A stretch of 44,423 nucleotides of DNA. It comes from Candidatus Eiseniibacteriota bacterium. Lineage in GTDB: Bacteria; Arandabacterota; Arandabacteria; JAGLYR01. The notes under the pieces are model-generated. The model had not been told where the DNA came from. It did not search any database and saw only the letters and a program-made list of their open reading frames with translations. Shown one piece after another: positions 1,601 to 18,271 of this stretch. The translations under genes and the position numbers were made by a program. The stretch lies in assembly GCA_023132135.1 (NCBI GenBank), contig JAGLYR010000017.1:1-44423 (forward strand), written 5' to 3'. The stretch's first letter is position 1. Each line of letters starts with the position of its first letter.

Positions 1601-2206
1601 TCATGGATCCCAGGCCAAGTAGATCATGAGTGCCGCCACGGCGATCACTGAAGCGACAAGAACCACAACTGCGTTCAGCAAAGCCTCGTGTGCTACAGCC
1701 ATTTGGCTGACCCGCTCGTTTACCACCTCCTGGTTCTGCGTTAAGCAGGAGGCTCGCTCTCGGGCAATCCTGCACTGGTACTCTGCTTCTGTCTCTCCCT
1801 CGAGTGGTACGATCTTCTCGATGGTGAGCCTTTCAAAGCCTTTTCGCTCCAGTCCCACAATCGTGGCGAGAACCGCTCTGAGTATCTGAAGCGATATGTA
1901 GGCAGCGACGATGATTCCAGCAGTTGTCAGCTTCGGCCCCAGTCGGAGAATCCCCTTTGCTGCAACATTTACCAGCAAAGCAAGGACCACAGCGACAACC
2001 ACGGAACAGACGGGTACGACGCCCTGGAGCTTGCGTTCAACAGCATCCAGCCTTCCGCTGGATGCTTCCTCCTGACGCTTGATCTGTTCGAGGACCAGCA
2101 TGGCCTTTTCATCCCCGGAACACAGATCGTCAGGTATCGACTCTGGCTCGCCGGGCCGACTCGTAAGCATTGGCCAGATCCTATCCACCAACCATTCCCA
2201 TACCAT
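1601..2206 (-). CDS. Three-helix membrane protein downstream of graspetide ligase
   Basis: This is a 201-residue membrane protein of no family I recognise. A polar N-terminal region with a short predicted coiled helix (about residues 35-60) is followed by hydrophobic segments at about 62-83, 94-119 and 175-198. A charged loop of roughly 55 residues lies between the second and third. The ATG at 2206 follows a G-rich site and starts 12 nt after the ATP-grasp stop, so the two genes are probably co-transcribed. By position it could serve export, membrane tethering or self-protection for the graspetide, but there is no ABC-transporter or peptidase motif to support any of these. Confidence 0.7.
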   Translation of the reverse strand: MVWEWLVDRIWPMLTSRPGEPESIPDDLCSGDEKAMLVLEQIKRQEEASSGRLDAVERKLQGVVPVCSVVVAVVLALLVNVAAKGILRLGPKLTTAGIIVAAYISLQILRAVLATIVGLERKGFERLTIEKIVPLEGETEAEYQCRIARERASCLTQNQEVVNERVSQMAVAHEALLNAVVVLVASVIAVAALMIYLAWDP

Positions 2207-2218
2207 GCGTCCCCCCCA

Positions 2219-3229
2219 TCAGGCAGCGCCGCGTCTGTCACCCTCTGCGTCCACCAGCCAGTCCGCAATTGCGCCCGAGATATCGAACCCAAGCCGATCC
2301 TGTATCCAAGCCCACTGTCCGCTAGGGTTGATTTCAAGGAAATAGTAGCTACCAGTCTTGTCCAGGACCAAGTCTATGGCCCCAAAGTTCAGGCCTAGGG
2401 CTGTGAGGAGCTTCCTGCACTTGGTAGCTATTTGCGGTGGCAGATCGCATCTCGAATGCGGCAAGTCAGCCGATTCCGTTCTCCTCCAGTCGGTCATCGC
2501 TGAAGGTAGTGACTGCGAGTCGATTCTTGCCGCAAACACTGTGCCGCCAACCACTGTCACCCGCAGGTCGCAAGCCTTGTCTACATGTTCCTGAAATATG
2601 ACGGGGGCCAGATGAATAGCCCCTTCGTCTTGGAGATCCGTCTGCGACACGGGCGTTGTATAGATGCTGTAGTTTCCCGTCGGACGTCGGATGTAGCCCA
2701 TGCGACACGCTTTTGCCACCACTCGGCCACGGTGTCTCCTGTGGAAGTCACGCGCAGCCAACGCGTCATTCGTGATCAGAGTGTGCGGGACCCTAAATCC
2801 AATCCGTGAGGCAATAGCAAGCTGGTGGGGTTTGGCTTCAGCGGCAGAGACAGCTGTCGGGTGGCTCATCCAGGAGACATCCCGCGCCAGCAGGGCACCT
2901 CTCAGGAACCACTGGCATTCCCGAAGGCAGAAGTCCTCTAAGTCGCTGTCGAGTTCCTGAGAAAGCTCTGGCAGACGATGCCGACGATACCAGACCGACC
3001 GCACACCGGAGAGATCAACGCAGTTCCCAGTGGCGTCAGTCCATTCCCACGTGGAGCTCCGGGACTTGGCCCCAACCATGAATCGGGAACGGGCTTCTAG
3101 GGGAAGGTCCTCGGTGTTCAGGCGATAGAAGTGAGCTTCCCGCTCACGAAGGGCCAGGATCACATAGTCCGCTGTGATGTCGATCTTCGTGGTAACAACC
3201 AGGATCCCAGGCCTAGGACTAGATGTCAT
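2219..3229 (-). CDS. ATP-grasp graspetide (RiPP) ligase
   Basis: This 336-residue enzyme belongs to the MvdC/MvdD-like ATP-grasp peptide ligases, which join Ser/Thr or Lys side chains of a precursor to Asp/Glu carboxylates, giving macrolactones or macrolactams. Visible features are an N-terminal pre-ATP-grasp domain (ILVVTTKIDITADYVILAL), Lys133 in EAKPHQL, Lys173 in VAKA, Glu214 in FQEHVDK, DLR at 221-223, Asp286 and the metal-binding FLEINPSGQW (297-306). I chose the ATG at 3229 because it overlaps the end of the second precursor (ATGACATCTAG), implying translational coupling. A GTG at 3268 would lengthen it by 13 residues but has no ribosome-binding site. The two precursor genes lie directly upstream. 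Confidence 0.9.
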   Translation of the reverse strand: MTSSPRPGILVVTTKIDITADYVILALREREAHFYRLNTEDLPLEARSRFMVGAKSRSSTWEWTDATGNCVDLSGVRSVWYRRHRLPELSQELDSDLEDFCLRECQWFLRGALLARDVSWMSHPTAVSAAEAKPHQLAIASRIGFRVPHTLITNDALAARDFHRRHRGRVVAKACRMGYIRRPTGNYSIYTTPVSQTDLQDEGAIHLAPVIFQEHVDKACDLRVTVVGGTVFAARIDSQSLPSAMTDWRRTESADLPHSRCDLPPQIATKCRKLLTALGLNFGAIDLVLDKTGSYYFLEINPSGQWAWIQDRLGFDISGAIADWLVDAEGDRRGAA

Positions 3230-3419
3230 CTGTGGTCTCTCTATTGACCTTTGTCTCTCCGGTGTCACACCCGAATCTGCTAGCTGGATCCTGGATGGCA
3301 GGTGTGTCGCCGGACATGAGCAACATCAACTTGCGGTCGTACCGCAAGTCGGAGTGGCGCGTCATTGGGATCCTCACGCCATATCTCAGCAAGAAAGGCT
3401 CTCTCACGTGCCTAGTCAT
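3219..3419 (-). CDS. Graspetide precursor peptide 2 (66 aa)
   Basis: This is a putative ATP-grasp-modified RiPP precursor. The leader has PFLLRY (residues 8-13), then LRYDRKLMLLMSGD (25-38), matching the general pattern of ATP-grasp-target peptides: PFxLR near the start and an aromatic-Asp-x-x-L block before the core. The C-terminal core is GETKVNRETTDDI, with Thr and Lys as possible nucleophiles and Glu/Asp as acceptors. Its ATG lies inside the last codons of precursor 1 (ATGACTAG), and its own last codons contain the ATG of the ligase. An in-frame GTG at 3434 would add five residues, but the coupled ATG is preferred. Confidence 0.85.
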   Translation of the reverse strand: MTRHVREPFLLRYGVRIPMTRHSDLRYDRKLMLLMSGDTPAIQDPASRFGCDTGETKVNRETTDDI

Positions 3420-3576
3420 CGTCAGTCGTTTCACCCCCTACTGCGGTGTGCTTGGTTTCAACGGAGGCGTTAATATCGCCCGAAACCAGAAGGGTCCGGT
3501 CAATTCGGTCTTCCGGGAACTGCGCGGGCACACTGTCACATGAGCTGGCAAATCGCACCAGGAACGGACTCTTCAT
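3412..3576 (-). CDS. Graspetide precursor peptide 1 (54 aa)
   Basis: This small gene is a second, clearly related precursor. The sequence runs from MKSPFLVRF (leader) through IDRTLLVSGD to the core ETKHTAVGGETTDDD and a stop. It shares with precursor 2 the PFLxR(Y/F) motif, the hydrophobic-SGD block and the ETK...ETTDD core, but has six residues (HTAVGG) rather than three (VNR) between the two core halves. A perfect GGAGG (3586-3590) lies 9 nt before the ATG, the best ribosome-binding site in the locus, consistent with a highly made substrate peptide. It starts 42 nt after the nuclease stop at 3619 and could be read from the upstream genes or from its own promoter, which I cannot identify. 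Confidence 0.85.
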   Translation of the reverse strand: MKSPFLVRFASSCDSVPAQFPEDRIDRTLLVSGDINASVETKHTAVGGETTDDD

Positions 3577-3585
3577 TTGTCTCTA

Positions 3586-3590
3586 CCTCC
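3586..3590 (-). promoter_or_regulatory. Strong ribosome-binding site of the graspetide precursor operon
   Basis: A perfect GGAGG lies 9 nt before the ATG at 3576. The downstream precursor 2 and ligase genes have no comparable site and appear to depend on overlapping stop/start codons, so this site probably drives translation of the whole coupled set. Confidence 0.7.
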
Positions 3591-3618
3591 TTGCATAAGG
3601 GTCCTTGACCCACTGCAT

Positions 3619-4233
3619 TTACATCTCCTTCCCACAACGCCTGCACTTGATCGGCCGTTGCGCATCTCCCGTGAATTCAGCTCCACAGAAAGGACACTTG
3701 CCATAGAAAAGTAGAGCGGCACGGCGGCAACCCCGAGGGTCCTTGACGATATCCGGTTCCTGCAGCACCAGCGCCGGCATTCCTGCGGCCTTGTAGGCCT
3801 CCGCCAGACATTCAGGGTATCCGGGAGGGTGACTGTATGTGCCGACGACTTCGATTACCTTGTCAGGTTCATCACGGAACCTGAAATCGGGGTACTTGGC
3901 GCGCCCATTCTCCAAAGTGACCGAATTGCCACGACTGCGATCGTTTCCAGAGAAATACAGTGAAGGAATGTCTGCAACCTCAAAGAACAGCTGCTCAATC
4001 GCGTTCGCTCCTGGCAGAGCGTCGCCCCCGGTTCGCTTTCCCCGTCGGATTCGTTCAAGCCGATCCTTGGCCCATTCTGCGTCTTTCTCACACACGGTGG
4101 ACACCTCGAATAAGCGATGGAGAAGCGCGTCACAAAGTGATTCTACCGCATACGATAGCCCAATGCCAGACCACTCTGAGCCTAGCTGCTTTCTGGCCTG
4201 GGGATTGGCATTCTGGGCGGAGCTGTGTCCCAC
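3619..4233 (-). CDS. Vsr-like endonuclease with C-terminal zinc ribbon
   Basis: This 204-residue protein looks like a very-short-patch-repair/PD-(D/E)xK-type nuclease. The core is KYPDFRF (Asp116) followed by KVIEVVGTYSH (Glu128, His135), the pattern seen in Vsr and related homing-type nucleases, then an alpha/beta end with ALVLQEPDIVKDP. A C-terminal zinc ribbon has Cys180/Cys183 and Cys197/Cys200. The gene overlaps the restriction-modification gene by 52 nt, so translation is probably coupled; a later non-ATG start cannot be excluded. A Vsr-like nuclease beside a DNA methyltransferase could repair methylation-linked mismatches or act as a second restriction activity. The family assignment is by motif reading only. 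Confidence 0.65.
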   Translation of the reverse strand: MGHSSAQNANPQARKQLGSEWSGIGLSYAVESLCDALLHRLFEVSTVCEKDAEWAKDRLERIRRGKRTGGDALPGANAIEQLFFEVADIPSLYFSGNDRSRGNSVTLENGRAKYPDFRFRDEPDKVIEVVGTYSHPPGYPECLAEAYKAAGMPALVLQEPDIVKDPRGCRRAALLFYGKCPFCGAEFTGDAQRPIKCRRCGKEM

Positions 4234-7200
4234 ATCAGCTGTACTTCGTCAAGAGTCAGGCCATAAGCCTTGTTCACCCAGTCGCCGATCTGCCTCTCCA
4301 GCCGTAACCCTTCGACAGCCAGCGTGCGCCTAGGCTCAATCGCCCCAGAATATTCCTCCCGGAGCACCTGTAACTTGGCCGATGTGAGAGACTTCCTCTT
4401 GCCCCGTCCCCTTTTAACCTCGTCTATGAATTCGTCACTGGTCAAGCCGACCGGTGATTGGAGCTTCTTGCTCGGTTTCTCAATGTCGAATTCCACTCTG
4501 AGCCAATCTAGGAGTTTTGCCTGAACCTCCATCAGTTCTCGGGTACCGTCGATGAGAGTACTCACCGCTTTCTCGGTCAATGCACGAAGCTGGTCCGACG
4601 GCTCCGCAATTGGCAGCACCTCCATCTTGAACGTCTGCGGAGTCAGAGCTTCGTCCTTCATGTGGGGCAGGTATCTGAAGTTGTGCCACCACATGAGCGG
4701 CGAGTTGAGGACACCGAGGAGATAGTAGTCCCGGGAAGGGAGAAGGAAAGTCTTGTCGTTGCCAAACATTGATGAATCGTCGAACGCGAAAGAGGGGTGG
4801 TATTGGATTACCTGATAGAGAATCTTCGGATTCTCGAACTCATCGTAGTACGAGCACGATCGGAGTTCCCACCAGAAACGACCCTTGTCTCGACGCTTGC
4901 ACAAGCGCTCCTTGTGTTGAGCCATATACCGATGGATACTCGGGTACACCTTGGCAAAAACCTGCTCCGCCCGCTCTCCAGCTCCGGACCACGGCCAATC
5001 GTGATCGGCGCTTGATCTGAGAACAATCATCCACCGACTCGGGCTGCATGGGCTCCACCGCCGCACGTCCTGACCACGGACGCACGGTCGTATGATCTTG
5101 GAGCAACCCGGATCATCCCGAATAAGCTCATCCCTAGCCGCTTTGTCGATGAGAAACGCCTTGTTATGTCCTGTCAGGAGTCCTCGGTAGGGTGTGGTGT
5201 TGGCGAATTCTGAGAGTGGCTTCCCCGCTTTGCGTAGCTTTGTCATCAATTCAAGTACTGACTGTCGTTCAAGATGCCACGCCCCAGCGTCAAGGTGTGA
5301 CCTCTCTATTTCGAAACCCTGTTCTGCAATCTGCCTGCTCAGGTTGTCAACTCTCAGTTGCTCCCTATGAATCGCGCATATTCGAGTGGTCTGGGGGGGT
5401 GGGCCATCCAACGGTCGACGGACCACGACAACCGACGGAAAAACGTCTGCTTCCTTGAAGACCTGCTTCGCGTGTCCTAGGTCTACAACAGACTCGAGCC
5501 AAGTTTCCTCTGCGAAGAAGCGCCGTAGAGGTTCCCCGTAGCCTGCTTTCATCCACTTGTTGGTAACCACATAGGACATTCTCCCGCCAGGCCTCAGAAC
5601 CTTCACACCAAGCTCGTAGAAGTAGACGTATATGTCGGCCATTCCGTGGAACGCGAGGTATCTCTTCCGGAGATACGCCTTGTAGGGGCTCAACAGCTCC
5701 TGTCGGATGTATGGTGGATTAGCAACAACGACATCAAACCCGCCATCCTCAAAGACCTCAGGAAAGGCTTCCCGCCATTTGAATGCCTTGGGATGCACCG
5801 CTGGGTCGTCAACGACGCTGTTGCCGACGCGAATGTTGTGGTCGAGATCTGTGAGCACCTTGCCCCGCTCAGCAGTCTTGATCCAGAGACTCAGGCGGCA
5901 GATCTCCACAGCTTCCTCGTTGATGTCGACTCCATAGAGGTTCTGTTGGAGAATCTGACGGCTCAGGTCGAATAGCTCTGGACTTCCCCGGAGTTCTTCG
6001 AGTCGATGATTCGCGGTTTGGTAGTGCGCGTAAAGCTGGTCGTAGGCTTCGATCAAAAAGGCTCCGCTCCCGCACGCTGGGTCAAGGACGCGCAGCTTCG
6101 CCAGTTCAATCTGCCAGTCCAGCCAGAAGGCGATCAGGGCATGTTTCTGAGGCGAGTTGAGAGTGGTGGCGTCGTAGGCTGCGGGATCCTCGAGGACCTT
6201 TCCTGCCGTTCCCCTAGCCCTCTTGGCATGATCATCGCGCAGCTTCTCAAAACGTTCACGAAGGACACTGCCCAGCGTCTGTTCAACAATGTAGCGAGTG
6301 ATGAACTCCGGAGTGTAGAACGCACCCTCTTTCTTGCGCCTGGACTTGTGCTTCGCAAGGTCAACGGTATCCGTGATGCCATCCAGCTCGTCCCGGAGCT
6401 TTTCCAAGTCCGTGATCGACTGCTCGAAGATGTGGCCGAGGATGTCAACGTCGACGATCCGGCAAATTGGCTCATCTTCAGGTTCCTCTTCCAACTCCTC
6501 GACCGGGCGATAGTCATAGTCGCCCAATACCTTGAAGAAGGCACACACGTCGTCGGGCACGGCCAAGTTGTCCAACACAGGGTCTTGCTCAAAAAGGCCG
6601 CCGTTATAGCGTGGTATAAGAAGGTCCGCATTGCCGTTGTTGATGAAGCCAAACAGCGCACGGAAGTTATCCCAGATCGGATGGGGGTTGTAGGGGTCCC
6701 TGTATTCGTAGGCGTTCTTGATTGTCTCTGCTGGGAGCAGACCACGATCTTCACAGAAGGCGGAGAAGAGAATTCGATCCAGTAGCTTCTGTGTCGCCGT
6801 CAGAATATCGTGTCTGTCGATCTCGGGATTCGCTTTGCAGAGAGCCGAGAAGGCATCGTGCCGCATGTTCGCGTACTGCTCGTAGTACTCCTTGGTGACG
6901 TTGCGGTCGGCTTTCTCGGATTCCTCAAGGACGTTGTAGAGATGGCTTCGACCGTCTTCAGGAGCAGCGCGTTCGGCACCGAGGAGGAAGACAAACTTGC
7001 GAAACTGGAAATCATCCGAAGCAAGCCTAGAGATGTCGAATCGTTCACAGGTATACTGATCGGCCCCTTTGTAATAGAGACGCGTTTCCCTCATGGATGT
7101 GACTATGATCCAGTCGCAAGGAAGATTGGTAGCGTACTGGTAGGCTTGTTCTATCGCTGACATGCGACGGCCTGCAAAGGGACGGTCGAGAGGATCACGC

Positions 7201-7550
7201 GGGCCCTTACCCTCAAGCACCACAACCGGCTTCCGCTGGTCCGGCCGAAAATCGCCGAGCACGGCGTCAGCGACCCGACCACTGGCCTCGACGCGTTCCT
7301 CCCTGGAGATTGTGTACCGGTTTTGTCCTTGGGCGGGACCTGTGTAGCCAAGAACGTTGTAGAAAACATCCGTGAGAAAATCAGGGAGGAGCTTTTGCTC
7401 TTTCTGCTTCGCCGCCTCTCCCGACGTGAAGAGCTCAGCCCACTGCTCGAGCTTGGCCCTAGCCTCTTTGGCATCATCGGGGAGCTCGAAGGCTTTGATG
7501 CGGGGCCGCAGAACATCAGGACGGAAGAGAGGCTTCAGGATGCTTGGCAA
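4182..7550 (-). CDS. Type IIG restriction-modification enzyme (Eco57I-like)
   Basis: This 1122-residue single-chain enzyme methylates adenine and cleaves DNA. The N-terminal PD-(D/E)xK nuclease has Asp95 and Glu113-x-Lys115 (VVVLEGKG). A helical connector leads to the methyltransferase with SAM motif DPACGSG (490-496) and catalytic NPPY (611-614), then a TaqI-like target-recognition region and a C-terminal helical end. The length is typical of the class and no motif is broken. I place the start at TTG 7550 because AAGGAG (7557-7562) lies 6 nt upstream; an in-frame TTG at 7619 would add 23 residues without a good site. Being one polypeptide, it needs no separate specificity gene. Confidence 0.9.
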   Translation of the reverse strand: MPSILKPLFRPDVLRPRIKAFELPDDAKEARAKLEQWAELFTSGEAAKQKEQKLLPDFLTDVFYNVLGYTGPAQGQNRYTISREERVEASGRVADAVLGDFRPDQRKPVVVLEGKGPRDPLDRPFAGRRMSAIEQAYQYATNLPCDWIIVTSMRETRLYYKGADQYTCERFDISRLASDDFQFRKFVFLLGAERAAPEDGRSHLYNVLEESEKADRNVTKEYYEQYANMRHDAFSALCKANPEIDRHDILTATQKLLDRILFSAFCEDRGLLPAETIKNAYEYRDPYNPHPIWDNFRALFGFINNGNADLLIPRYNGGLFEQDPVLDNLAVPDDVCAFFKVLGDYDYRPVEELEEEPEDEPICRIVDVDILGHIFEQSITDLEKLRDELDGITDTVDLAKHKSRRKKEGAFYTPEFITRYIVEQTLGSVLRERFEKLRDDHAKRARGTAGKVLEDPAAYDATTLNSPQKHALIAFWLDWQIELAKLRVLDPACGSGAFLIEAYDQLYAHYQTANHRLEELRGSPELFDLSRQILQQNLYGVDINEEAVEICRLSLWIKTAERGKVLTDLDHNIRVGNSVVDDPAVHPKAFKWREAFPEVFEDGGFDVVVANPPYIRQELLSPYKAYLRKRYLAFHGMADIYVYFYELGVKVLRPGGRMSYVVTNKWMKAGYGEPLRRFFAEETWLESVVDLGHAKQVFKEADVFPSVVVVRRPLDGPPPQTTRICAIHREQLRVDNLSRQIAEQGFEIERSHLDAGAWHLERQSVLELMTKLRKAGKPLSEFANTTPYRGLLTGHNKAFLIDKAARDELIRDDPGCSKIIRPCVRGQDVRRWSPCSPSRWMIVLRSSADHDWPWSGAGERAEQVFAKVYPSIHRYMAQHKERLCKRRDKGRFWWELRSCSYYDEFENPKILYQVIQYHPSFAFDDSSMFGNDKTFLLPSRDYYLLGVLNSPLMWWHNFRYLPHMKDEALTPQTFKMEVLPIAEPSDQLRALTEKAVSTLIDGTRELMEVQAKLLDWLRVEFDIEKPSKKLQSPVGLTSDEFIDEVKRGRGKRKSLTSAKLQVLREEYSGAIEPRRTLAVEGLRLERQIGDWVNKAYGLTLDEVQLMWDTAPPRMPIPRPESS

Positions 7551-7700
7551 GTCAGGCTCCTTCGGACAATAGAGGTCTGCTGCTATGTCAAGGCTGTGGC
7601 ATCTCAGCCTGATTCCCAATAATAGTGGCCCCTGGCGGCCAGAATCAAGGATTCAGTGAAGAATGAAATCGGAATTGGGCCGTAACCCAAAGGTCAGGGC

Positions 7701-7982: not shown

Positions 7983-8027
7983 TGTCCCCAGATTATCCGA
8001 AGTCAGTGTTGTGTCCCCAGACTGCAA
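7983..8027 (+). repeat. Dispersed repeat family 2, copy 1
   Basis: Positions 7996-8027 match 9892-9923 in 30 of 32 positions, with a shared core around TCAGTGTTGTGT and CCCAGACTGCAA. The two copies are direct repeats flanking the TIR-like module (8212-9826). Confidence 0.8.
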
Positions 8028-8211
8028 TACGCTGCCCCCCTACCCAGTCATTTCCTGTGCCGCAGCACCGACTTCGCTCCGTCTCGTCCGCGTACAAGGG
8101 GATTGTCACAGAAGTGGCAAACTGGTATCATGTCGCTGCAATGCTTGTGAGGTGCCAACTCATTTGCACGTGTCTCTCCTGGTGCAGCGGCGCGCCGCCG
8201 AGGGGATGACG

Positions 8212-8796
8212 ATGGAAGTTGAATACTGCAGGTCCGCCTACGAAAAGGAGTGGGGGCGCAGAAAGGATGTTGAGGGTGGCCTCAACGTTCCCATAGGAAT
8301 CTTGTCTCTCATTGCTACCGCGACAGCCTATCTCGCGCGGTCCTTCCGATACGAATGGGACGTACAAACACTCTCATTTGTTGCCATGCTCGCGGGCGTT
8401 GCGAGCGCTTTTGTTCTGGCAGTGGTCTACCTGATGAGGGTTCTTCACGGTTTTACATACAAGGCCATGCCCACGCCTCGCGAGTTGAATGAGCATGAGG
8501 AGCAAGTGCTGGCCTACTACAAGGGCGGCGATCGGGCGAAGGTAGCTTTCGAGGACTACTTGAAGCAACGATACGCTGAGGCGACGGAAGTGAACTTCTG
8601 GAACAACGTATCGAAGTCGGAATACCTTTACCGAGCACACCGCGCCATCGTGTGGCTGCTGATACTCTTCGCGATTATGCTGGTGTCAGCAGTCATCAGT
8701 GGAATTCTGCATGCCAATGGTGGCGGTGAAACCAGCTGCGGCTTCTGCGCTATTATGTGTCAGATGCCTGGAGGAGTATGTGATGTTTCCCGATGA
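8212..8796 (+). CDS. SLATT-like three-helix membrane protein
   Basis: This 194-residue protein begins with a charged amphipathic helix, followed by paired membrane segments at about 27-43 and 54-76, a long charged cytoplasmic region (about 80-142) and a third membrane segment at about 145-166. The helix-TM-TM-helix start resembles SLATT-type pore-forming effectors found next to nucleotide-signalling or TIR-like proteins in conflict systems. I place the start at ATG 8212, 6 nt after AGGGG; an ATG at 8206 is too close to that site. It is followed by an overlapping microprotein gene and a TIR-like gene on the same strand. The SLATT assignment is an inference from topology, not from a recognised signature. 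Confidence 0.65.
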   Translation: MEVEYCRSAYEKEWGRRKDVEGGLNVPIGILSLIATATAYLARSFRYEWDVQTLSFVAMLAGVASAFVLAVVYLMRVLHGFTYKAMPTPRELNEHEEQVLAYYKGGDRAKVAFEDYLKQRYAEATEVNFWNNVSKSEYLYRAHRAIVWLLILFAIMLVSAVISGILHANGGGETSCGFCAIMCQMPGGVCDVSR

Positions 8797-8905
8797 CGAA
8801 CCACAGTCTCCACCACCAGAACCCAACGAGTCCCCGCCTGAGGGTCCTCCCTTGCACGATGTGAAGGAGGGAGAGCAGCCTTCGAAGAAAGGTGGCAAAG
8901 CCTAG
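8783..8905 (+). CDS. Proline-rich 40-aa microprotein
   Basis: This short gene overlaps the end of the membrane-protein gene by 14 nt. GGAGGAG (8770-8776) lies 6 nt before its ATG, a strong sign of real translation. The product is acidic and proline-rich in its first half (EPQSPPPEPNESPPEGPP) and lysine-rich at its end (KKGGKA). It is probably disordered, and I know no function for it. Its place between a membrane protein and a TIR-like protein suggests a linker or adaptor role in that module. Confidence 0.6.
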   Translation: MFPDDEPQSPPPEPNESPPEGPPLHDVKEGEQPSKKGGKA

Positions 8906-9046
8906 GGCACTTGCACGGTCGATCCGTGAGTGGGCCGGTTAATCGTGTTTTCCGGCTGGGACTGTCGCCGTGTTAGGCTCATGGCCCGGGCCACCGGGAG
9001 TCTTATAGCGATCAGTCTACTCACTGTTCGGCCAGAAGGTGGAATC

Positions 9047-9826
9047 ATGCGACGATGTTTTGTAATGCAGCCATTCGACGAGAGCACATTTGACAAACGC
9101 TATGAGTCTGTCTTTGCACCCGCCATCTCTGCCGCCGGAGTTGAACCCTATCGCGTTGACCGCGATCCATCGGTGAGCATTCCCATTCAGGATATCGAGA
9201 ATGGAATCCGGAATGCGGCAATCTGTTTTGGCGACATCACAACAGATAATCCGAATGTCTGGTTCGAGCTAGGTTTTGCTTTCGCGATCCCTCGCGAAGT
9301 CGTGCTGGTTTGCTCGGATGAGCGAACAACCAAGTATCCCTTTGACGTCCAGCACCGGAGCATCATCAAGTACAAGACGGGTGCACCTCAGGACTTCGAA
9401 GAACTCGAGGCAAAGATATCCAAGCGAATACAGGCGGTTTTGAAGAAGAACGAAGAGATTGGGCGCGCTGTCTCGCTTCCCTCGGTAAAGGATACCCGGG
9501 GACTGAACCAGCATGAACTCGTAGCTCTCGTCACAATCATGCAGAATTCCTTCCTTTCCAACGGGTATGTACCAGGCTACCGGATCAAGAACGACATGAA
9601 CAACGCAGGCTTCACCGACATTGCCGTTGGGATCGCCCTCAAGACCCTTTCTGCCAAGGAACTGTTGGAATCAGATCTGTGGACCGACCAACTCGATGAC
9701 CCATACATGGTCTACAAGACCACTCCTGAAGGGGAGCAATGGCTCATCACTAATCAAGAGAGACTATCTCTCACAATTCAGCCAGAGGAATCAGGAACAG
9801 AGAATGGAGACGACCTGCCCTTCTGA
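9047..9826 (+). CDS. TIR-like / deoxyribosyltransferase-fold protein with winged helix
   Basis: This 259-residue protein starts MRRCFVMQPFDESTFDKRY, typical of bacterial proteins with a TIR-like or nucleoside 2-deoxyribosyltransferase-like Rossmann fold. Further signatures are ADIxTDNPNVWxELG-type residues, here GDITTDNPNVWFELGFA, with Glu74 where the family has its catalytic glutamate, and PFDVQHRSIIKY. A C-terminal winged-helix-like domain spans about residues 155-240. The ATG at 9047 is preferred, with AAGGTGG just upstream; the longer frame from 8930 has no site. Such proteins cleave or bind nucleotides or NAD in known relatives. Next to a membrane protein this suggests an abortive-infection type of module. 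Confidence 0.7.
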   Translation: MRRCFVMQPFDESTFDKRYESVFAPAISAAGVEPYRVDRDPSVSIPIQDIENGIRNAAICFGDITTDNPNVWFELGFAFAIPREVVLVCSDERTTKYPFDVQHRSIIKYKTGAPQDFEELEAKISKRIQAVLKKNEEIGRAVSLPSVKDTRGLNQHELVALVTIMQNSFLSNGYVPGYRIKNDMNNAGFTDIAVGIALKTLSAKELLESDLWTDQLDDPYMVYKTTPEGEQWLITNQERLSLTIQPEESGTENGDDLPF

Positions 9827-10835: not shown

Positions 10836-10864
10836 TTGACCTCTGTCCCCAAAAAGGGGACAAT
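10836..10864 (+). promoter_or_regulatory. Promoter with embedded operator for the MNT-HEPN pair
   Basis: A -35 box TTGACC (10836-10841) and a -10 box GACAAT (10859-10864) are separated by 17 nt. A perfect palindrome, TGTCCCCAAAAAGGGGACA (10844-10862), fills the spacer and overlaps the -10 box. The start codon is 22 nt further on. A repressor bound there would block RNA polymerase; the winged-helix domain of the first gene is the obvious candidate for autoregulation. Confidence 0.7.
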
Positions 10865-10886
10865 CGTCCTCAGATTGGGGGCGGCT

Positions 10887-11480
10887 ATGATTGAAGCACT
10901 TCTACCGCAAACCCGCCGGAACATTCTGGCACTGCTGTTTGCAAGGCCTGACGAGGCCTTCTACCTGCGTGAAATCGTGAGAATCACGGGCGCCGGCAAG
11001 GGAGCCGTCGAGCGCGAACTGCGCGCGTTGTCCAACGCCGGCATCGCTGTTCGGGAGAAGCGGGGTAATCTCACCTACTACAGCGCCAACCCCGAATGCC
11101 CCATATACGCCGAGCTGCGCGGCTTGATCCTCAAGACCGCCGGGCTCGCGGACGTTCTCCGGGATTCCCTGGCCCAAGTGAAGGGCATCCACATCGCCTT
11201 CGTCTTTGGCAGCATGGCGGCGGGAACCGCCGATGCCAGAAGCGATGTGGACCTGCTCATAGTGGCAGACGCCCCATTCGCCGATATCTCAGCCGCACTG
11301 CTTCGAGCGCGAGAGCGCCTTGGAAGGGACATCAGTCCAACAGTCTATTCCGTGGAAGAGTACGAAGAAAAACTCAGGGCAGGACACAGCTTCTTCATCC
11401 GGTTGCTGGAAGAACCGAAGATCGCGTTGATAGGAAACCCCGATGACCTTGGACGAGTGGGTCGATCAACATCGAGGTGA
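10887..11480 (+). CDS. Winged-helix MNT-type nucleotidyltransferase antitoxin
   Basis: This 197-residue protein joins an N-terminal winged helix (about 1-68, ArsR-like, with AFYLREIVRITGAGKGAVERE as recognition region) to a minimal nucleotidyltransferase domain with FVFGSMAAGTADARSDVDLL: the GS at 108-109 and metal-binding Asp120 and Asp122. MNT proteins of this kind pair with HEPN toxins and silence them by AMPylation in characterised systems. The HEPN gene starts inside this gene (38-nt overlap), so the two are translated together. The ATG at 10887 follows a G-rich site; the upstream frame from 10836 covers the promoter and is not coding. Confidence 0.85.
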   Translation: MIEALLPQTRRNILALLFARPDEAFYLREIVRITGAGKGAVERELRALSNAGIAVREKRGNLTYYSANPECPIYAELRGLILKTAGLADVLRDSLAQVKGIHIAFVFGSMAAGTADARSDVDLLIVADAPFADISAALLRARERLGRDISPTVYSVEEYEEKLRAGHSFFIRLLEEPKIALIGNPDDLGRVGRSTSR

Positions 11481-11895
11481 CTTACGGCCGGATTCGCCAA
11501 GGCCGGAGACTATCCACGTCCTGCTCGAGGTCGCAGATCGCGAGCTCCGGGACGCTGAGTCCGTGTGGTCCGACGATGGCCGCCTCGAGCATGCGTTCGC
11601 GAGCTGCCTTGCCGCGGCTTCGGCCGCGCTTGCGGCTTGCGGCTACCGCGTGCGCAAAGGAGCACCTTCGCACCACTACCGGCGGCTGGAATCCCTTGTC
11701 TATACGCTCGGGCTCTCCCTGAACGACGTGCAGGAACTGCAGGAGTTCCGCAAGAAGCGGAGTCGCTCGATGTACGAGCAGGTTGGGGTCGTCACCAGGA
11801 CAGAGGCGGATGCCGCGGTGACTGCAGCCCGGCGTCTCCGCCGTGAGGTTTCCGCTTGGCTCGCGCGTGAGCACCCTGAGCTAACTGAGACCTAG
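11443..11895 (+). CDS. HEPN-domain toxin-like protein
   Basis: This 150-residue all-helical protein is the likely partner of the MNT protein. A helix with RKKRSRSMYE (Arg106 to Tyr111) matches the Arg-x4-Tyr form of the HEPN motif rather than the Arg-x4-6-His nuclease form, so ribonuclease activity is uncertain. The sequence also contains the paired long helices typical of HEPN (about 22-70 and 92-145). The gene overlaps the upstream antitoxin by 38 nt, and its end overlaps the end of the opposite-strand AbiEi gene by 15 nt. Confidence 0.75.
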   Translation: MTLDEWVDQHRGDLRPDSPRPETIHVLLEVADRELRDAESVWSDDGRLEHAFASCLAAASAALAACGYRVRKGAPSHHYRRLESLVYTLGLSLNDVQELQEFRKKRSRSMYEQVGVVTRTEADAAVTAARRLRREVSAWLAREHPELTET

Positions 11896-15100: not shown

Positions 15101-18100
15101 TCATGCCCCCCAGATCGCGGAAGGGACGCCCGCCGGTTCACTCACCAACCCGATGCTGGAGATGATAACGCTGAGATCGCGGATGTCGGGTGGCGCGTTG
15201 AAGGTTTGCGACGCGGTGAGCTTGAGCTGCAGGAGATCTTCGGTTCGCAGGTGTTCGGGGAGTTCGGACAGGATCTCAATAGATGAATCGATGATCGGGA
15301 CTTCGGCCAGAAGCTCGTTGTTGGCGGAGATCCTGAGGGTGAGGTCCCGGCCTTCAAACTTGTCCGGCAAGGCGACGCCATGGATTCGGACGTGGGTGAG
15401 CTCCGGATTGCCCTTGAGATAGATGGCGGATTCCTTGCCCATCCAGCGTGAGCGGTTGCCGTCGGGCCCTTCCAAAGAATGCCAGCCGTCGCCCATCTGG
15501 GCGTCGGTGTGGTCCTTGCTGAAATCGACGTAGGACGCGACAAGGTCCGGCCGGCGCCGGGCCAACACTTCGATGACTTCCTCTCGCGAAAGTCCCCACT
15601 CCCGCCACATCTGCCAGTTGTCCGAGGCAATCTCGATGCAGCGTTCTTCGTGGTCCCTGAGGAGTCGGCTGAATTCCTCTTCCGGCATAGGACCCAAGTA
15701 GTGGCGGGCAGGGGTGTTCTTGACCTCGTTCCAGTTCATGCCCTCGGAGACGATTCCTCTCTTCAGCGCCTCATCCCAAATGGGCGTGCCGGGGTATAGA
15801 CGGAGCCGTCCCCGCTGCCATCGCTGGATTTTCCCGGCGCGGAGATTTTCTTCCAGCGCGCGGAAGGTCGTCTGCAAATCCTCGCGGGTTTCCCCCGGGG
15901 CGCCGTAGATCAGGGAGAGATTCGGCCGGATGCCGTACTCGTTGAGAAGATCGATGGTCCTCTGGTTGTCCTCGGGGGTCGCGGTTCCGGACTTGAGGTA
16001 ATCCAGGACCCCGGGCGAGAAGGATTCGGCCCCGAACATCACTTCCACGACATTCATCCGGCCCAGCATATCGCAGAGTTCACGGTCCACCAGATGCGCG
16101 TGAACCGCGCCGCTGAAAGCCATTTCCTTGTTGAGACCCCTTTCGTCGATGAGACGACAGATCTCCCGGATCCGGCTTCTGGGCGTGATGAAAAGGTCAT
16201 CGAAGAAGTGCGCGTTGCTAACACCAAGGTCGCGATGGATGTGCTCGATTTCCCGGACAACATAGTCGGCCGAGAAGTAGCGGAGGTTTTGCCAGAAGCG
16301 GGAACTCGCGCAGAAGATGCACCGGTAGGGGCAGCCCCGGGAAGTAAACAGGAAAGCCCGGTCGCTGGGAAGGCCGATTCCAATGGCTTTCCGGTCCGGG
16401 AACGGCAGGGAGTCGAGCGATTTGATAGGGGGCCTGGGCTGTGTCTGGAAAAGTGCCCCGTTGTCCCGGAACGCGATCCCGGGAATTCTTCTCAGGTCTT
16501 CGGGCGGAAAACGCTTGCCCCGTTCCTTGAAGCACTGGAGGAGCTCGTGGAGCGTGACCTCGCCCTCGCCGAGGACGGCAATGTCCATTTGCGGCGTGAG
16601 ATTCGGGGGAATAACCGTGATGTGGACGCCCCCGACGATGACAGGGATGTCACTTCTCTCTTTGACCTCTCTCGCCATACACTTGGCCAGCTCGAATTCC
16701 TCGGTCGAGGAACTGATACCCACAATGTCGACATTCTCGGCCAGGAGATCATCAATGGTGTACCGGAAAAGGACCTCGCATTCGGGCATCTTCTCGCGCA
16801 GGTACGAGACAAAGTAGCCGAAGGCCAGCGGGGAATCGGTGTTGCATCTTTTCTCGGGCGCCGTGGAGTCCGCGATGATCAATCCGAGGCGGACGGCGGG
16901 GCGCGCCGGCGAGTGGGCGCTGTCCCGGCGCGGAGAACCATCAGACTCCCCGCAGACGGCGGACAGGCCGACGACCTGGACGGAAAGGATCCGGGCATCG
17001 GGTCCGAGTCCCAATTCGACGGGGATGAAGACAGACGAGCTTTTGAGAAGGATGGGGGTGTCATTTTCCAGGACAACGCGAACCGGCACCCTCTGGTTGC
17101 TTTCGTCAAACGTAACTGTCTGCAGATGCCGGTCCCCGGCGAAGATCTCCACCACAAAGGGGAATGGATCGTAGTACCGGGCATCGAGGCAAACCAGGGT
17201 GAACGCCACCTCCACGGGAAGCGCATCAGCCGGAACCATGATCTTGGCCTGGTGGCCCATCCATCGCCAGAGCCCTTCATCTTCGTGGAAACCGGTACCG
17301 TATCCGGGTCTGATCTGCGAATTGGTGTCAGAGGACCGAGGACTGAGTGACTCCGAGTGCTCCGGCTCCCCGGTTCTCCGACTCTCCGGAGCCTGCAGTT
17401 GCACCTGCTTGAGGTCGGCGGTCCCGGGGTCCAGGATCAGCTTGACCAGATCGGCAATGTCCGCGGGCAGGGGCTCCTGGGGATAGCCCTGTTTCTCCCA
17501 CAGTTTGGCCCAGGTCAGGAACCGGTAGTAGGCCATGGATACGGCCAACACGAGGCTGTGGACACCGTCGGTCCCGGGATCATATCGCTCGACTGCTTCC
17601 TTGAGAGCTGCGGTCAACATGAGTTCGAGGGACCACTTTTTCCCATCCCGCTCCAGGCTCCGGCACTCGTGGTCCGTGTAGCGGTTCAGGCGGTCGACGA
17701 AGTCGAAGAGGTCGTCGTAGGCGAGATGGTCGATTCGGGCTTCCAGCGGCAAGGGCAGCAGCCCTTCCTCACCGTGCATGACGGGGAGCGCATGGATCCG
17801 GTCCGGCCAGCTGAGGGCGCCTTTCCGGAACAGGCGCGGCTGGCGTTCGACATCAACTCCAAAACCAGACCCTTCCATCCATCGTCCCGCGATGTAGTTC
17901 CGGCGGGGAATGCGGAAGATGTCAATGCCCCCGGGGTCGGAGATGACATCGCGGATACTGCAGGCCAATTCGCGGGTGACTCGCTCGTCGGCGTCGAGGA
18001 TGAAAATCCAGTCCCCCGCGGCCTGTTGAATCGCAAACTCCCTGGCGGGTTCAACCACGCCGGTCCGCTCATGGAAGAAGATCCGATCCGTGTAGCGCCG

Positions 18101-18271
18101 GGCGATCTCCACGGTGCGGTCATCGCTGTGCATGTCCACCACGACGATCTCGTCCGCCATGTCTTTCACGCTCTCCAGGCAATCCTCGAGATTCGCTTCC
18201 TCGTTGAGCGTGTTGATTACGACGGACAGCTGAGGTTCCTGGTTCGTTCTTTTGACTGGAAGTGGATGCAT
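15101..18271 (-). CDS. Glycosyltransferase family 2 fused to B12-binding radical SAM enzyme
   Basis: This 1056-residue fusion has four or more parts. Residues about 14-260 are a family 2 glycosyltransferase of the WaaE-like type (SVVINTLNEEANLEDCLESV, with DAD at 93-95). Residues about 328-440 form a beta-sandwich-like module starting LWRWMGHQAKI. Residues about 460-600 are a B12-binding domain (DIVGISSST, VIVGGVHITV), followed by a radical SAM domain with Cys647, Cys651 and Cys654 (RGCPYRCIFC). The last 110 residues are a second module with SRWMGKESAIYL, resembling the first. The start is ATG 18271, with GGAGGG 12 nt upstream, which is rather far. It may add and chemically alter a surface sugar; the substrate is unknown. 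Confidence 0.85.
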   Translation of the reverse strand: MHPLPVKRTNQEPQLSVVINTLNEEANLEDCLESVKDMADEIVVVDMHSDDRTVEIARRYTDRIFFHERTGVVEPAREFAIQQAAGDWIFILDADERVTRELACSIRDVISDPGGIDIFRIPRRNYIAGRWMEGSGFGVDVERQPRLFRKGALSWPDRIHALPVMHGEEGLLPLPLEARIDHLAYDDLFDFVDRLNRYTDHECRSLERDGKKWSLELMLTAALKEAVERYDPGTDGVHSLVLAVSMAYYRFLTWAKLWEKQGYPQEPLPADIADLVKLILDPGTADLKQVQLQAPESRRTGEPEHSESLSPRSSDTNSQIRPGYGTGFHEDEGLWRWMGHQAKIMVPADALPVEVAFTLVCLDARYYDPFPFVVEIFAGDRHLQTVTFDESNQRVPVRVVLENDTPILLKSSSVFIPVELGLGPDARILSVQVVGLSAVCGESDGSPRRDSAHSPARPAVRLGLIIADSTAPEKRCNTDSPLAFGYFVSYLREKMPECEVLFRYTIDDLLAENVDIVGISSSTEEFELAKCMAREVKERSDIPVIVGGVHITVIPPNLTPQMDIAVLGEGEVTLHELLQCFKERGKRFPPEDLRRIPGIAFRDNGALFQTQPRPPIKSLDSLPFPDRKAIGIGLPSDRAFLFTSRGCPYRCIFCASSRFWQNLRYFSADYVVREIEHIHRDLGVSNAHFFDDLFITPRSRIREICRLIDERGLNKEMAFSGAVHAHLVDRELCDMLGRMNVVEVMFGAESFSPGVLDYLKSGTATPEDNQRTIDLLNEYGIRPNLSLIYGAPGETREDLQTTFRALEENLRAGKIQRWQRGRLRLYPGTPIWDEALKRGIVSEGMNWNEVKNTPARHYLGPMPEEEFSRLLRDHEERCIEIASDNWQMWREWGLSREEVIEVLARRRPDLVASYVDFSKDHTDAQMGDGWHSLEGPDGNRSRWMGKESAIYLKGNPELTHVRIHGVALPDKFEGRDLTLRISANNELLAEVPIIDSSIEILSELPEHLRTEDLLQLKLTASQTFNAPPDIRDLSVIISSIGLVSEPAGVPSAIWGA

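Follow-up and report, generated by a model that had tools for sequence, protein, structure and literature searches.

A probable thuringinin-like graspetide cassette with two single-core precursors in a Candidatus Eiseniibacteriota genome

The window analysed here, a stretch of 44,423 nucleotides from a Candidatus Eiseniibacteriota genome, carries on its minus strand four genes in series, which encode two small precursor peptides, an ATP-grasp ligase and a membrane protein (Table 1). Judging from their sequences, these genes very probably constitute a thuringinin-like graspetide cassette, the products of which would be peptides cyclised within a single core each. A preliminary description had recognised tandem graspetide precursors lying directly before an ATP-grasp ligase, and this is confirmed by the open reading frames and their overlaps, the homology between the two peptides and the family profiles of the ligase; the membrane protein gene was absent from the coordinates that it gave. 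Precursors with repeated cores (Lee groups 3, 5 and 6, with thuringinin among them) form cluster 13 of Makarova et al. (2022, PMC8939145), and their cluster 18 is a membrane protein, uncharacterised and restricted to thuringinin loci, for which they suggested a role as transporter. The cassette fits their description in every testable part except the exact spacing of the core and the number of repeats. A 2026 survey counts 43 graspetide groups and 21,584 predicted graspetides (PMC13097080), so that a single divergent member is, taken alone, no surprise. What is new here is modest: the outer Thr of the core lies at -3 from the inner Thr and not at -2, the acid at +2 after the Glu is missing from both peptides, and two tandem genes carry a single core each, where relatives have repeats in one gene.

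Table 1. Coordinates of the cassette in the window, of cassettes in prophages, and of restriction or candidate defence genes lying close to cassettes.
Feature	Locus	Position	Strand	Content	Basis
Precursor 1, 54 aa	window	3412..3576	-	leader MKSPFLVRF..., C-terminal core T41-K-H-T44-A-V-G-G-E49-T-T-D52-D53-D54	ORF, Shine-Dalgarno, homology to precursor 2, family profile
Precursor 2, 66 aa from ATG	window	3219..3419	-	leader PFLLRY...RYDRKL..., C-terminal core T53-G-E-T56-K-V-N-R-E61-T-T-D64-D65-I	overlap, family profile
Graspetide synthetase (MvdC/MvdD-type ATP-grasp ligase), 336 aa	window	2219..3229	-		family profiles, PDB matches, conserved residues
Membrane protein, 201 aa	window	1601..2206	-	three hydrophobic segments	family profile, shared motifs
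Ribosome-binding region of precursor 1	window	3577..3601	-	CAAGGAGGTAGAGACAA-ATG	direct sequence reading
Restriction/candidate defence genes, within about 3 kb of cassette	window	4182-7619
Restriction/candidate defence genes, within about 3 kb of cassette	L046	6575-9861
Restriction/candidate defence genes, within about 3 kb of cassette	L011	6336-8155
Restriction/candidate defence genes, within about 3 kb of cassette	L016	471-2967
Leptospira/other prophage cassette	L012	3679-5580
Leptospira/other prophage cassette	L018	4679-6600
Leptospira/other prophage cassette	L019	4606-6847
Leptospira/other prophage cassette	L020	4723-6555

The ribosome-binding site ahead of precursor 1, AAGGAGGT, is near-perfect, its AAGGAGG being 9 nt away from the ATG. 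What had been remarked about this site and about the positions of the genes was correct, and the first peptide is indeed small enough to be missed. The open reading frame of precursor 2 spans 3219-3434 on the minus strand, where a GTG at 3434 would give 71 aa; the ATG at 3419-3417 is the more likely start. This ATG falls within the final Asp codons of precursor 1, the ligase ATG (3229-3227) falls within the final Asp codons of precursor 2, and the membrane protein gene begins 12 nt past the end of the ligase gene. The overlapping genes are presumably coupled in translation. Flagellar and flagellar-export genes (a FliI-like ATPase, FliL, FlhB and FlhA) occupy 25-44 kb of the window, which places the cassette close to a core chromosomal locus of this genome.

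The two precursors are homologous: their local alignment scores 58, whereas 5000 shuffles averaged 21.4 (SD 4.1) and reached 46 at most. Both also carry the graspetide leader motif P-h-h-x(1,2)-h (PMC8939145), as PFLVRF and PFLLRY. Short open reading frames are frequent in this GC-rich sequence, and the peptides could have been chance frames upstream of an unrelated, RimK-like ATP-grasp enzyme. This is extremely improbable given a homology far above shuffles, the match of both peptides to a precursor profile made from other loci, the quality of the ribosome-binding site and the tightly overlapping starts.

When the two peptides were aligned freely, the optimal alignment placed their cores in a single gapless register, VETKHTAVGGETTDDD over CDTGETKVNRETTDDI, with TxxTxxxxETTDD in common and with Thr, Thr, Glu, Asp and Asp at identical positions in both. 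The core had previously been read as ETK and ETTDD halves separated by three or six residues; this gap appears because ETK was aligned with ETK, a register that scores lower over the core (BLOSUM62 score of 25, against 34 without gaps). Rings of different size had been proposed on the same ground. The difference in length between the precursors is located in the linker between leader and core, outside the core itself, and a difference in ring size is thus without support; since one gapless register holds in both peptides, equal ring sizes are predicted.

These alignments bear directly on the proposal of a new graspetide class, with fixed ETK and ETTDD halves, a variable gap, unequal rings and possibly a Lys amide donor. 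Both strings do occur in both peptides, and the spacing TxxTxxxxExxDD is not among the units of the relatives described below, but the class is very unlikely. The register picked by free alignment also matches the T....E..DD of the family, and the ligase, leader, core and membrane protein are all thuringinin-like, with their counterparts in clusters 13 and 18. Moreover, the Lys of ETK takes different register positions in the two peptides (in peptide 1 it follows the outer Thr, at +1; in peptide 2 it follows the inner Thr, again at +1) and is unlikely to be a donor.

Relatives of the thuringinin-like cassette were sought on plasmids, in phages, in viral contigs and in an actinobacterial survey, and their neighbourhoods were then read. 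Small homologous frames lie beside the related ligases with their T, E and D residues conserved, in line with the comparison that the preliminary description had suggested. In the precursors of these relatives, 38 Tx4E units were found automatically, two of which (at L015 and L019) were overlapping mis-registers, leaving 36. All 36 of these units, like both window peptides, combine an inner Thr with a Glu at +5 and, past the Glu, an acid at +3. Thr or Ser precedes the inner Thr at -2 in every one of the 36, and an acid occupies +2 in most. Each of the two window cores retains its inner Thr, a Glu at +5 and acids at both +3 and +4, but places the outer Thr at -3, with none at -2, and has Thr instead of the +2 acid. 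The window cores are thus a small but real variant, concordant in two paralogues, and the earlier impression of an unfamiliar core holds at this level, since the exact spacing TxxTxxxxExxDD was found in none of the 36 correctly registered units, although it fails as a sign of a new class.

Precursor 2 contains TKVNRE, nearly identical to the TKVNLE and TKVNVE of relatives, and scores 17.0 bits (E 5e-4) against a profile of the relatives' precursors built without it, the best shuffle reaching 6.3. Precursor 1 matches the same profile weakly, at 11.8 bits against the same best shuffle. A tblastn search of plasmids with precursor 2 alone gave no significant match.

The ligase matches TIGR04187 at 290 bits (cut-off 350), MvdC at 240 (of 425) and MvdD at 221 (of 475), as well as PF21068; its best PDB matches, 5ig8, 7m4s, 5ig9 and 7mgv, are microviridin and related synthetases. 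The seven ligases that were aligned all share the ATP/Mg residues D286, E299 and N301, and D-L-R stands in the window ligase at the position of the family's D-x-R. In a tree of 26 rows, obtained by removing the four longest and without thuringinin's own ligase among them, a branch with weak support (53/90) sets the window ligase and all ten ligases from loci with a membrane protein apart from the other rows, and the five rows nearest to the window ligase are all of this kind. The five nearest rows are again of this kind in the tree of 30 rows, where the membrane-cassette ligases do not form one resolved group. Several points count against the thuringinin-like placement, namely the weak support of this branch, an identity of at most about 41% between the window ligase and any relative found, the weak profile match of precursor 1 taken alone, and cores that have lost the -2 Thr and +2 acid of nearly all relatives.

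TIGR04187 is the top NCBIfam match of the ligase, and it is the family of the actinobacterial tgmA/tgmB/tgmC systems (SAV_5884; graspimiditides), with which the window also shares a Y-D-x...P-x-I/V region in the leader. Membership of this tgmA/tgmB kind is nevertheless highly unlikely, and we rejected it on the score below the cut-off and on the ligase trees. Indeed, a Streptomyces tgmB reaches 401 bits, whereas the ligases of the membrane cassettes, like that of the window, match TIGR04187 below its cut-off (245-266 bits), and in the trees the tgmB ligases fall into a well-supported clade of their own, from which the window ligase is absent. Furthermore, the tgm systems have other cores, and their isoaspartyl methyltransferase gene is absent from the window, where the membrane protein gene takes its place.

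To characterise this fourth gene, a profile was built from the downstream proteins of ten relatives, without the window protein. The frame at 1601-2206 is the best window ORF against it (41.9 bits, E 2.2e-12), as compared to 11.4 bits for the best of 1000 locally shuffled copies, and the window protein scores 43.5 bits when the actinobacterial protein (L040) is also left out of the profile. An N-terminal WP, R52...K59 and N....N.KV are motifs common to the family and the window protein. On this sequence evidence, the protein is a member of the membrane-protein family that follows the ligase in thuringinin-like loci, a family that would, by its position and description, correspond to cluster 18. 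Its hydrophobic segments lie at about 63-81, 98-116 and 179-198, and an AlphaFold model of low confidence (pLDDT 64, pTM 0.42) consists of helices only. The family profile gave only chance-level matches to solved structures; a tblastn search of plasmids with the membrane protein alone gave nothing significant, and a profile was required.

The cassettes seen in the neighbourhoods of the relatives share a recurrent order of precursor, ligase and a membrane protein of ~200-240 aa, the genes often overlapping by a few bases, and their precursors contain 2-6 tandem TxTxxxxExDDD units, for example TKTKVNLEADDD. Plasmids of Croceicoccus, Pseudomonas aeruginosa RW109, Sinorhizobium and Agrobacterium carry them, as do a fecal phage scaffold, a Leptospira phage and Leptospira prophages, two further prophages and an Actinomycetota genome (G192), the precursor of which (ETRTVTKIASEDDD ... 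TGTETRIGSEDPD) was identified by manual inspection of the reading frames. In the prophages L018-L020, the cassette lies on the strand opposite the neighbouring phage genes, in a passenger or moron position. PHROG 25343 corresponds to the cassette precursor and PHROG 21292 to the cassette membrane protein; both are listed as of unknown function. Among eight species of the phylum, the ligase was detected at high score in the window's genome only, and the cassette was not found in the few genomes examined from the same family, order, class and phylum.

Two loci met in this search stand somewhat apart. A prophage locus (L053, 3783-5619) encodes a 75-aa precursor with THSKTMAWPGDDDPDEGRCY at its C-terminus, apparently a single core of another spacing, together with a divergent member of the membrane family (26 bits). 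In a Propionibacteriales MAG (L005, 5001-5968), the ligase is broken across frames downstream of a tgmA-like precursor, possibly a decayed locus or an assembly error.

Compared with known systems, the window cassette most resembles thuringinin-like loci, which have the same gene order of precursor(s), single ATP-grasp ligase and small membrane protein. Their leader, PFLxRF ... Y ... P-I, and their core, TKVNxE..DD, are also found in the window, and the succession of two Thr, then Glu, then Asp residues is matched by its T....E..DD register. In contrast, thuringinin-like precursors bear several cores per peptide, whereas the window has one core on each of two overlapping genes, and all relatives found have TxT where the window has TxxTxxxxExxDD, with acids at +3/+4 only. 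Thuringinin's own motif is TxxTxxxExxDxD, which has a shorter inner spacing than the window core and a different last acid. The Leptospira phage vB_LalZ_80412-LE1 carries a three-gene cassette with a ligase 38% identical to that of the window and with the same membrane-protein motifs, but its single precursor of 106 aa contains three tandem TKTxxxxExDDE-like units. Microviridins (MdnB/MdnC; PDB 5ig8, 5ig9) are expected to share the ligase fold and its chemistry, and have a PF..RF leader motif; they differ by a TxKxPSD core, two ligases, a Lys amide link and a C39 peptidase/ABC transporter. The window cassette was rejected as a microviridin locus, TxKxPSD being absent and the MvdC and MvdD scores falling below cut-off.

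A mechanism may be proposed for the thuringinin-like cassette. The ligase would recognise the PFLxR(F/Y) leader and, consuming ATP, esterify Glu/Asp carboxyls with Thr hydroxyls inside each C-terminal core. An inner ester would link Thr(0) to Glu(+5) (precursor 1, T44-E49; precursor 2, T56-E61) and would be nested inside an outer one, in which the Thr located three positions before the inner Thr is joined to the first Asp that follows the Glu (T41-D52 and T53-D64). We infer these linkages because the register is conserved and because, by a published rule, nucleophile residues come before acids (PMC7823629). Each peptide would then become a small bicyclic hairpin, lighter by 36 Da, with equal ring sizes in both. 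As for the membrane protein, it would probably export, anchor or answer to the peptide product.

The surroundings of the cassettes raise the question of a role in conflict, which would be compatible with a thuringinin-like cassette and bears on its function. The cyclised peptides might act with the membrane protein as a toxin, trigger or exclusion factor, the cassette travelling as a passenger of defence islands and prophages, although we consider this rather unlikely. More generally, it is doubtful, if conceivable, that thuringinin-like cassettes are mobile conflict modules on prophages, plasmids and defence islands, with peptides that are not exported protease inhibitors. We are equally hesitant to see in the peptides and membrane protein, for example, an exclusion or abortive-infection pair, of which the window would be a divergent minimal version with two single-core peptides. 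Such readings draw on the restriction genes near several cassettes: a Type IIG restriction-methylation enzyme near that of the window, Type I HsdM/HsdS beside that of G192 (L046), an Eco29kI-like restriction enzyme with a C5 methylase at L011 and the candidate defence pair PDC-M01A/B at L016. The strand inversion of the L018-L020 cassettes relative to the phage genes and the patchy distribution, with the cassette in 1/8 genomes of the phylum, point the same way, as would a PycTM-like match of one cassette membrane protein, if it were significant (E 0.016). However, these associations are anecdotal, being drawn from about nine loci with no background rate to set them against. AbiE-type genes are likewise found close to plasmid graspetide loci that have no membrane protein (L030), and protease inhibition is the activity described for every graspetide characterised by 2022 (PMC8939145). 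PADLOC models did not match the window ligase or membrane protein. Because several relatives adjoin restriction systems or ride prophages as passengers, a defence-like role is nevertheless an open lead.

The cassette provides a natural ring-spacing variant, the shift of the outer Thr from -2 to -3 and the loss of the +2 acid being concordant in two paralogues, and this bears on how far graspetide ligases tolerate changes in the geometry of the ladder. It also extends thuringinin-like cassettes to a sparsely sampled phylum, represented here by eight species, and its relatives give a probable identity to the two unannotated phage protein families PHROG 25343 and 21292. Why these cassettes occupy prophages and adjoin restriction systems is a question that can be tested.

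Several other genes of the window deserve mention. Between the Type IIG enzyme and precursor 1, a 204-aa protein (3619-4233) has a C-terminal zinc ribbon and a nuclease-like YPDFRF...KVIEV; it gave no family match above threshold. At 8011-9826, a membrane protein gene with near-noise scores of 10-15 bits to the cassette membrane family adjoins a gene for a nucleoside deoxyribosyltransferase/TIR-effector-like protein (8930-9826), and the two look like an effector pair. Overlapping genes for a nucleotidyltransferase (MNT, with HTH) and a HEPN protein at 10836-11895 are a probable HEPN-MNT toxin-antitoxin pair. Finally, a 1056-aa protein encoded at 15101-18271 combines glycosyltransferase family 2, B12-binding and radical SAM domains.
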